A stretch of 34,007 nucleotides of DNA, taken from contig JAHFQW010000006.1 in NCBI GenBank assembly GCA_023259115.1, positions 30,477 to 64,483 of the forward strand, read 5' to 3'. Under the pieces are notes generated by a model, which ran no database searches, was not told where the DNA came from, and saw only the letters and a list, made by a program, of their open reading frames with translations. Positions 5,764 to 25,120 of this stretch are shown in pieces; the stretch's first letter is position 1, and each line of letters begins with the position of its first letter. The DNA comes from an archaeon (GTDB lineage Archaea > Nanobdellota > Nanobdellia > Woesearchaeales > GW2011-AR9). The position numbers and the translations under genes are program-made.

Positions 5764-5946
5764 AGACTTTGAATAACCCCTATACTCATCGATATTCAAA
5801 GTCTACCAAAAGACCTAATTTCTTATAATAATAGTTAGGTCTTTTGTAGATACAACGGACAGAACTATTGATATTATTATTTCTGTCCGTTGGTATCCTT
5901 CTTAGAGGGTTCTGACAAGTATTATAGGGTTAATCAAAACCCTCTA
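5764..5946. repeat. Cluster of four tandem perfect hairpins after pyrD
   Basis: Four adjacent hairpins of unrelated sequence: H1 5764-5775/5793-5804 (12 bp, copy C of the ACTTTGAATAA family), H2 5807-5818/5835-5846 (12 bp), H3 5849-5864/5881-5897 (16 bp with one bulge) and H4 5903-5911/5938-5946 (9 bp). H1 begins at the pyrD stop, so H1 could terminate pyrC-pyrD. Four in a row is more than a terminator needs and resembles the tandem-hairpin elements elsewhere in the window. H1 and H2 share an AAAAGAC end, as if they were two arms of one element. Confidence 0.75.
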
Positions 5947-10328: not shown

Positions 10329-10532
10329 CTTAACTGGGTCTAATACCCCGTAGCTCTGCTACGATATCTAATTACCCAGTTAAGATTAAAAAATCCCAAC
10401 TATAGTAAATTGCCACAAAAATCGAACATTCTAGGCAATTTCTATATCTGAAATTCGCAACATTTTATTCGATTTCTTGCGAATTTCACTATAATTGAAT
10501 ACCCCGCAGCTCTGCTGCGATTGGGATTTTTT
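10329..10532. repeat. Two nested hairpins with a twin inner stem-loop
   Basis: Hairpin 1: 10329-10339 with 10374-10384 (11 bp). Hairpin 2: 10388-10399 with 10521-10532 (12 bp). Each holds in its loop the motif TACCCCG(T/C)AGCTCTGCT(A/G)CGAT (inner stems 10349-10363 and 10505-10519), where the single stem difference is compensated on both sides. Hairpin 2 is split by the hairpin element 10403-10491. The array fills the gap between the convergent phosphoesterase and Fic genes and could act as a bidirectional terminator. Confidence 0.75.
10403..10491. mobile_element. MITE-like tandem-hairpin element (TA duplication), 89 bp
   Basis: TA (10401-10402) and TA (10492-10493) flank an element that begins TAGTAAATTGCC and ends, read inward, TAGTGAAATTCGC. 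It consists of two hairpins (10407-10414/10434-10441, and 10450-10460/10477-10487). It sits in the loop of hairpin 2 of the host array; removing it and one TA leaves that hairpin intact. Same architecture as the element inside vapC at 24983-25095. Confidence 0.65.
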
Positions 10533-18382: not shown

Positions 18383-18470
18383 CCGAAGCCCACCGTCCTA
18401 TCCAGGCTAGACTACAGGCCCACTAATAACAGAAATAATCCCTCTCCTTTTAAAAGATTATGGTATAAAA

Positions 18471-18748
18471 GGCTAATATGAAACCCTCGCCAAAGGGCCA
18501 GCGAACTAGTCTGGTGTCTCGTCAGACAACACCCGGTGCTCCATTCAAATTTATAGTAAATGTGTGAAATAATCAAATATTAATCTACACATTTACTTAC
18601 AAGAAATGTGAAAGCTATCACATTTCTGTACAGAAAATGAGTCATTACTCATTTTCTTGTATTAGTAATGGTGAACTCCCATTCGAAAATTATTCACCAT
18701 TACTATACCTTGATTGGAGCAAGTGAGCGGGAGGGTTTCATATTAGCC
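18471..18748. repeat. Large inverted repeat enclosing nested hairpins
   Basis: Arms 18471-18488 and 18731-18748 are perfectly complementary over 18 bp. Inside are GGTGT-ACACC around GTCT-AGAC (18513-18533), a second stem (18538-18548 with 18710-18720, 10 of 11 bp) and, within that stem's loop, the element 18554-18705. It fills the 371-bp gap between the tRNA promoter and the ZIP gene. Without the inner insert it would be about a 126-nt foldback. Whether it is an RNA gene or an older mobile element is not clear. Confidence 0.7.
18554..18705. mobile_element. MITE-like tandem-hairpin element (TA duplication), 152 bp
   Basis: TA (18552-18553) and TA (18706-18707) flank ends TAGTAAATGTGTGAA and, inverted, TAGTAATGGTGAA. 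Four perfect hairpins in a row: 18556-18565/18587-18596 (10 bp), 18602-18611/18618-18627 (10 bp), 18632-18642/18647-18657 (11 bp) and 18664-18675/18693-18704 (12 bp). Precise removal restores the loop of the host stem. No coding capacity. Confidence 0.7.
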
Positions 18749-18755
18749 GGTATAA

Positions 18756-18786
18756 AGTACGTATTAAGTTCACATTAAAAGTGCTG
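18756..18786. repeat. Lone terminal repeat of the 190-bp foldback element
   Basis: AGTACGTATTAAGT followed within 17 nt by AAAAGTGCTG matches both termini of the element at 25354-25543. No inverted partner was seen within the intergenic region, so this is a solo or degraded copy. It lies a few bases downstream of the ZIP stop codon, like the full element, which lies on the truD stop. Confidence 0.6.
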
Positions 18787-24634: not shown

Positions 24635-25120
24635 TTAAGACAACACTATCGCCCGGGGCAATCCCCGAAAATCATTATCTCTTGTTACTAATTCTGTTCC
24701 AATTTGTTGCGATGTAGCATAAATCAAAGCATCTGCTGCTGCTAAATTATGTTGCACTGATAATTCAGATGCAGACACAGAAATATCTTTTGTAATGAGA
24801 TAAATTAAACTTTTTTTTTCTAAAAAAGCCATGAGATTCCCAATTTTAACCGGATCAATTTTATCTTTTAGCATTTTTTACGTAATTCAAATAAAGATAT
24901 CACCCTTATCGCAAGCAATTGATTTGAATCAATTATCTCCTGATACTTTTGACTATAAAAATAATCAATCCAAATAGAAGTATAGTAAACTGCGTTACTT
25001 GTAGCACATCCCTATTTACAGCAAAACCCCATTATGCACGCAGTTTACTTATTAGATAACTGCGCCAAATGTGATATAACTTGCGCAGTTATCTATATCA
25101 ATAAATTTAGAAGCGGTCAC
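24635..25120 (-). pseudogene. vapC: vapC (PIN-domain toxin) disrupted by hairpin element and a frameshift
   Basis: Starts with GTG at 25120, overlapping the vapB stop by 14 nt. The first codons read VTASKFID; then the element (24983-25095 plus one TA) intervenes; then TSIWIDYFYSQKYQEIIDSN and LLAIRVISLFELRKK. At the A6 tract (24874-24879) one base is missing and the frame resumes as LKDKIDPVKIGNLMAFLEKK, SASELSVQHNLAAADALIYA and LVTRDNDFRGL. Joined, this is a complete PIN protein: Asp8, the Glu in LFELRKK, Asp in AAADALI and RDNDF. Read as it stands, translation stops in the element, so the toxin should be inactive. Confidence 0.85.
24983..25095. mobile_element. MITE-like tandem-hairpin element inside vapC, 113 bp
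   Basis: Ends TAGTAAACTGCG and, inverted, TAGATAACTGCG (10 of 12 identical), flanked by TA at 24981-24982 and 25096-25097. Inside, two perfect hairpins: 24984-24995/25038-25049 (12 bp) and 25053-25065/25083-25095 (13 bp). Removing the element and one TA joins GAT to ACT and restores FIDTSIWIDYF of VapC. A TA duplication is typical of Tc1/mariner-IS630 related insertions. No open frame of its own. Confidence 0.85.

Follow-up and report, generated by a model that had tools for sequence, protein, structure and literature searches.

The 34,007-nt stretch considered here, referred to as the window, belongs to contig JAHFQW010000006.1 (positions 30,477 to 64,483, forward strand) of the woesearchaeal assembly GCA_023259115.1, a genome of 1.57 Mb in 54 contigs that was analysed through searches and through stretches covering about a quarter of it. 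At 18554-18705 of the window lies the element TAGTAAATG...CCATTACTA, bounded by TA at 18552-18553 and 18706-18707 and composed of four successive hairpins at 18555-18597 (11 bp), 18602-18627 (10 bp), 18632-18657 (11 bp) and 18663-18705 (13 bp). It occupies the loop of an outer stem, in which 18471-18488 pairs with 18731-18748 at 18/18 positions and 18537-18548 with 18710-18721 at 11/12. A previous interpretation of the letters alone, here termed the sequence-only reading, had placed a TA-bounded array of four hairpins at exactly this position and inside another stem, and both statements proved correct; the stem lengths of 10-12 bp it gave apply to the first three hairpins but not to the last. 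Its description of the array as a "four-hairpin member" is accurate as to the number of hairpins, yet the array consists of two independent two-hairpin elements rather than a single four-hairpin unit. Three gene-less mobile elements are nested in one another at this locus, the miniature inverted-repeat transposable element (MITE) O hosting A, and A hosting C (Table 1).

Table 1. Features of the nested locus and of related elements in the window
Feature	Position	Strand	Basis
O, outer MITE hosting whole array, terminal inverted repeat GGCTAATATGAAACCCTC, ~124 bp without insert	18471..18748	+	18-bp perfect inverted repeat; 4 empty copies
Left 9-bp target duplication of O, GGTATAAAA (right copy GGTATAAAG, 8/9)	18462..18470	+	sequence; exact repeats at L046, L047, L048
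Right 9-bp target duplication of O	18749..18757	+	sequence
TA, left target dinucleotide of A	18552..18553	+	single TA in empty O copies
A hairpin 1, TAGTAAATGTGT...ACACATTTACTTA	18554..18599	+	kept in 12/49 genomes; covariation
TA, left target dinucleotide of C = centre of A	18598..18599	+	C-free A copies read ACTTATTAG
C hairpin 1, CAAGAAATGTG...CACATTTCTG, bulged A near foot	18600..18628	+	covariance model, stem comparison
TA, central dinucleotide of C, reverse complement of flanks, proposed guide	18629..18630	+	rule in 101/114 copies
C hairpin 2, CAGAAAATGAGT...ACTCATTTTCTTG, bulged T near foot	18631..18659	+	covariance model, stem comparison
TA, right target dinucleotide of C	18660..18661	+	C-free A copies; copy comparison
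A hairpin 2, TTAGTAATGGTGAA...TTCACCATTACTA	18662..18705	+	hairpin detection; covariation
TA, right target dinucleotide of A	18706..18707	+	sequence; empty O copies
H-type double hairpin, TC-[TACCAAAAGACC..GTA]-GA-[TACAACGG..GGTA]-TC, nested in E-type double hairpin (5764-5946)	5802..5897	+	second rule-obeying family
B-type double hairpin (AGTAAACTGCGT.../TAGATAACTGCGC...), related to A, holds no nested insert	24983..25095	+	copy comparison

The outer element O, which is a separate MITE with a structured body of 124 bp (the window copy and L045-L048), is present elsewhere in the genome as four copies without the insert, which show 93-98% identity and are each placed between 9-bp direct repeats (TGTTTACTT, GGGAAAGAA and TTCAAAAAC; the repeats of the window copy agree at 8/9 positions). 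Three of these empty copies read CAAATTTACATTGATT and one GTACATTGATT, with a single TA at the point where A is inserted, while the window copy reads CAAATT-TA-[A with C]-TA-CCTTGATT. Family A thus uses a TA target that is doubled on insertion, and the four insert-free copies prove that removal of the array restores the outer stem, as the sequence-only reading had held. Because O is flanked by 9-bp direct repeats, it moved by a mechanism other than that of A and C. In addition, a longer relative of O at L136:11991-12543 features the same terminal repeats and has TATAGTAAAT in its interior as well.

Element A is a 90-nt double hairpin, as hairpins 1 and 4 of the array are joined directly (ACT-TA-TTAG) at many sites from which C is absent. 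C, a double hairpin of 60 nt, is placed in the window at the TA between the two hairpins of A and is found again in other double-hairpin elements, likewise between their hairpins. The nestings seen comprise C in A, C in hosts of the B, F and H types, D in C, E in the loop of A, and A in O. Other hairpins are preferred insertion targets, and an inverted repeat of at least 7 bp is common to both host flanks in 29/114 C-type copies, compared with 5.8% expected. Large hairpin arrays arise through insertion of elements into one another's middles, and the family grows by such nested insertion of two-hairpin elements. The growth by hairpin units that had been proposed earlier has to be refined, since the unit is the double hairpin and larger forms result from insertion at its junction or loop. 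Growth of the array one hairpin at a time, by duplication or addition, could account for the existence of arrays of two, four and more hairpins, but it is contradicted by the occurrence of C alone and in unrelated hosts, by A without C, and by junctions that always comprise exactly one dinucleotide, which leaves this explanation with next to no probability.

Family A was found in 12/49 genomes and 10/36 genera of the same taxonomic family, and two-sided stem changes were observed in 10 cells, compared with 2.5 in shuffles. The comparison of ends with inner hairpins recommended by the sequence-only reading revealed conserved ends and inner stems that vary with compensatory changes, and the membership of the element in a dispersed TA-flanked family was confirmed. 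The TAGT ends occur elsewhere as anticipated, but they are confined to one family, and TA is only one target dinucleotide of the nested family. At L011:2681-3007, L013, L015 and L018, A was encountered in an enlarged form of 327 bp that contains C, D and additional hairpins in the hairpin 2 loop. At least four copies of this composite exist at 93-98% identity, which suggests that it has spread recently as one unit.

The pairing of hairpins exceeds what chance would give: adjacent hairpin pairs numbered 38 in 412 kb of the window genome and 0 in a Markov-shuffled control, and hairpins with stems of at least 9 bp amounted to 145 compared with 35; this sample was partly picked for copy-bearing contigs, so its densities are not genome averages. 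None of 29 tandem arrays had its centre within a stop-free frame of 120 aa or more, though such frames make up 87% of the bases. A search of the whole genome with 18554-18705 as query yielded 65 matches. Copy numbers are lower bounds because several contigs of the assembly end in or beside elements (G000 C47:40, C5:16974, C30:74 and C13:121).

The distribution of C was assessed by means of a covariance model built from C, in which the dinucleotides at the flanks and in the centre were treated as unpaired, so that any rule concerning them was not built in by the search. C-type elements occur in 44/49 genomes and 31/36 genera of the same taxonomic family, and in only 24/253 genomes elsewhere in the phylum, mostly as weak matches. 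Most matches were counted twice since the element reads almost the same on both strands, and copy numbers among related genomes range from 0 to dozens. Conservation extends to the loops (AAACTA and TCGTT), to the feet and to a single unpaired base in each hairpin, the unpaired A of hairpin 1 (position 4) and the unpaired T of hairpin 2 (position 61) each being present in 90/93 copies. In the stems, the first 11 copies compared exhibited 32 two-sided and no one-sided changes, and 20 diverse copies exhibited 96 and one, respectively; the latter set was chosen from copies that obey the rule described below, for which only the count over 114 copies is unbiased.

C-type elements take the form NN-hairpin-N'N'-hairpin-NN, with N'N' standing for the reverse complement of NN. 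The left flank equals the right flank and the reverse complement of the centre in 100/114 distinct copies, or 101/114 if L262, read by hand, is included. The scored dinucleotides fall into few classes, mostly pyrimidine-purine steps (TA 35, TG 32, CA 16, CG 7, TT 5, CT 4, AA 1). With one representative per host context the rule holds in 57/64 cases, while permuting the centres 20,000 times gave 15.5 on average and never more than 28. The 13 exceptions comprise six copies with equal flanks and a centre that is off by one letter, and seven with unequal flanks. The same rule applies to a second family besides the C type, namely the H-type elements (TAC(C)..GTA feet, about 96 nt), which occur in 27/49 genomes and obey it in 44/50 copies, 36 of them reading TA/TA/TA and eight TC/GA/TC. 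Seven of these eight reside in the same kind of host; the stems of L306 are unrelated and its host is a different one, and therefore at least two independent TC/GA/TC cases exist.

Empty sites were sought by joining the flanks and searching them against all fetched DNA. Unoccupied relatives of C-type sites carry NN once, as observed for CG (L223 versus L056, identical over 62/62 nt, with another case at L188), for TG (L209 versus L250, fully identical and situated in the loop of another C), for CT (L250 versus L209), for CA (L257 versus L258) and, in many instances, for TA. Double-hairpin elements are scattered over intergenic DNA, and each goes precisely into a dinucleotide of which the empty site has one copy and the filled site one on either side. 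In the host CTTGCGTGCTC (CTTG-CG-TG-CTC), CG is used by elements with the centre CG and the neighbouring TG by elements with the centre CA. The presence of NN on both sides is compatible with a 2-bp duplication as well as with a right NN borne by the element. D inserted in C displays CA on the left, CA in the centre and TG on the right without any duplication, the right flank matching the centre and the left flank not matching it, which suggests that the right dinucleotide may belong to the element and not to a duplication.

These sites also bear on two explanations in which the centre plays no part in targeting. If the elements were classical Tc1/mariner-IS630 MITEs with TA duplication, family A and most H-type copies would be in line, being TA-flanked with the TA doubled on insertion; the insertion of C-type elements, whose centre covaries with the target, at TG, CA, CG, TT, CT and AA is not, and non-TA targets with single-copy empty sites weaken the case for the C type further. 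No DDE_3 domain was detected in the window genome by a search whose control worked, and an IS630 origin appears improbable overall. The tandem hairpins might instead be selected structured RNAs or terminators whose flank complementarity merely extends the stem, as their intergenic position, covarying stems and conserved loops would suggest. Against this stand single-NN empty sites that reveal discrete insertions into other elements, the uptake of inserts by the same host at neighbouring dinucleotides, copy numbers from 0 to dozens, and the lack of any Rfam family match: a scan of the window produced nothing at gathering scores, the weak hits around the locus being due to chance. An RNA or terminator role is accordingly very improbable.

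The favoured explanation for the flank-centre rule is pairing by a two-nucleotide guide, acted upon by a postulated enzyme, and the match between centre and flanks across the family suggests a very simple mode of target choice; we regard this explanation as evenly poised between right and wrong. According to this proposal, the elements would move as folded single strands, and a trans-acting enzyme would recognise the bulged hairpins and conserved loops and carry out cutting and joining. As a minimal guide, the central N'N' would pair with NN of either end during excision and with NN of the target during insertion, by analogy with the guides of IS200/IS605 elements; in IS608, guide letters at the foot of the hairpin choose both the cleavage sites and the target through pairing (PMC5934647). 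Junctions and loops of resident hairpins would be favoured as targets because they are exposed as single strands, and nesting would follow from this exposure. A more far-reaching version, in which the two-letter guide between the hairpins, common to both ends, is the entire transposition address and serves an enzyme other than Y1, IS630 or IS110 throughout a whole DPANN family, is put forward only tentatively; a change of the two central letters would then direct the element to another dinucleotide.

The main rival to guide pairing is later repair of the centre. Here an ordinary 2-bp target duplication would take place and the centre would be rewritten to match NN, during or after insertion, by template switching in the hairpins; with the left NN, the centre and the right NN all at stem feet, the rule would be a by-product of palindrome correction. 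Such correction would account for the near-absence of one-sided stem changes, and the equal-flank copies with a one-letter mismatch look like uncorrected insertions. Near-identical bodies with different NN and matching centres (L187 TG, L188 TT and L222 CT) fit as well. On the contrary, stem-wide correction should erase the unpaired A and T, yet nearly all copies keep each of them, and the confinement of NN to few classes as well as the D-in-C junction, where only the right flank fits the centre, also speak against repair. When near-identical copies were compared with respect to guide and copied centre, the result was mixed, both outcomes occurring. Repair of the centre is a serious but rather unlikely alternative.

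Several observations count against guide pairing itself. Six copies combine equal flanks with a centre that is off by one letter (L200, L218, L230, L233, L235 and L261), and L233 (TA/CA/TA) and L235 (CG/CA/CG) differ in this manner with identical bodies, which a strict guide would not predict. Moreover, NN and centre can both change between bodies that are nearly identical, which would require frequent switching of guides. Neither Y1_Tnp (PF01797) nor DDE_3 (PF13358), the control search for the latter being positive, nor an IS110 transposase was detected in the window genome; the last of these is present in 4/49 relatives, and Y1_Tnp occurs in 17/49 relatives without tracking the copy number of C. 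No recurrent gene adjoins the C copies, and the movement of the elements is deduced from presence and absence.

As sources of the enzyme in the window genome, Y1, IS630 and IS110 transposases were rejected, none being detected. Among ten Y1 loci of relatives that were examined, only L289 adjoins clear C copies and L293 displays weak matches only. Further dispersed hairpins were noticed alongside the nested families. A single-hairpin family, TGAAATTCGCAA...TTGCGAATTTCA with the ends TATA/CTATA (10449-10488 in the window; L136:12254, L140:17233, L141:2439), often adjoins the repeat GAACATTCTAGGCAATTTCTATA. Another hairpin, AGTAAAAATCAC...GTGATTTTTACT followed by CTTGAAAATGGTTTTTGCATTTTCA (L139:13384, L143:15665, L144:10157, L147:7834), is repeatedly located 3' of TTTGACA within hairpin 2 of E-type elements. 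The SRP54 protein encoded in the window has its nearest matches in Woesearchaeota and other DPANN genomes, at identities of up to 84%. Lastly, L053 and L061, which are among its top hits and are labelled as the CPR bacteria Nomurabacteria and Staskawiczbacteria, encode an SRP54 that is 79-84% identical to the woesearchaeal one and are probably misbinned contigs in public metagenome-assembled genomes.

In the open-licence literature searched, no account of the flank-centre rule or of such serial nesting was found, and a search with archaeal or woesearchaeal focus retrieved nothing on such elements, in keeping with the earlier remark that this is not known to be a described MITE architecture. 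Bacteria and mitochondria abound in short hairpin elements, but for most of these no way of selecting a site is known. The rule relating flanks to centre holds in dozens of archaeal genomes and in two element families unrelated to each other, and it allows the target to be predicted from the element. It makes the movement of double hairpins without genes a testable problem and points to an unknown enzyme in little-studied archaea. If guide pairing is true, it would represent about the smallest programmable targeting signal known.

In the broad sense, the elements are MITEs, being short, gene-less, dispersed and inverted-repeat with precise empty sites. Family A shares with Tc1/mariner-IS630 MITEs the TA target doubled on insertion, but 77/114 C-type copies do not have TA on both sides, the hairpins are paired, and no DDE_3 transposase was found. 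In IS110 elements, a bridge RNA selects, through two-loop pairing, a target that has a dinucleotide core in common with the element ends. The dinucleotide core and the two-loop structure may be alike, whereas the elements described here comprise just 64-96 nt and the DEDD transposase is restricted to the few relatives mentioned above, the window genome having none.

The paired short intergenic hairpins, high copy number and covarying stems resemble REP/BIME/REPIN elements, which RAYT (TnpA-REP) mobilises, and one case of bacterial REP pairs lies inside TATAGGA...TCCTATA palindromes (PMC3733652). In contrast, the present elements are archaeal and lack a GTAG or CGTC foot, their feet being NN-CA or NN-TA; their hairpins nearly touch (0-6 nt), and they feature a precise dinucleotide target with a complementary centre, without a RAYT gene, a recurrent gene beside the copies or a Y1 domain in the window genome. 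Gene-less double hairpins are also found in fungal (Allomyces) and sponge mitochondria, where these elements and the RHEs are intergenic, presumed mobile and present in tandem and in multiple forms; the portions of these reports consulted explain the sponge cases by tandem insertion of single hairpins and describe no complementarity of flank and centre (PMC2800124, PMC7218506). There, too, two adjacent hairpins are the mobile unit and are optional between relatives, a likeness of form alone; they reside in organelle DNA.

A close parallel in target choice is provided by the IS200/IS605 family (IS608, ISDra2), which possesses terminal hairpins, has guide letters near the hairpin foot that are complementary to both cleavage site and target, keeps the target at the left flank and inserts without a long duplication (PMC5934647). 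The C type likewise has an imperfect, bulged hairpin at each end and guide complementarity, in the form of a 2-nt match of centre and flank in 101/114 copies. It differs in that the proposed guide has two letters and not four, a tetranucleotide guide 5' of each hairpin not being seen, that no gene lies inside, that no Y1 is detectable in the window genome, that targets vary among copies of one family, and that one guide between adjacent hairpins would serve both ends.
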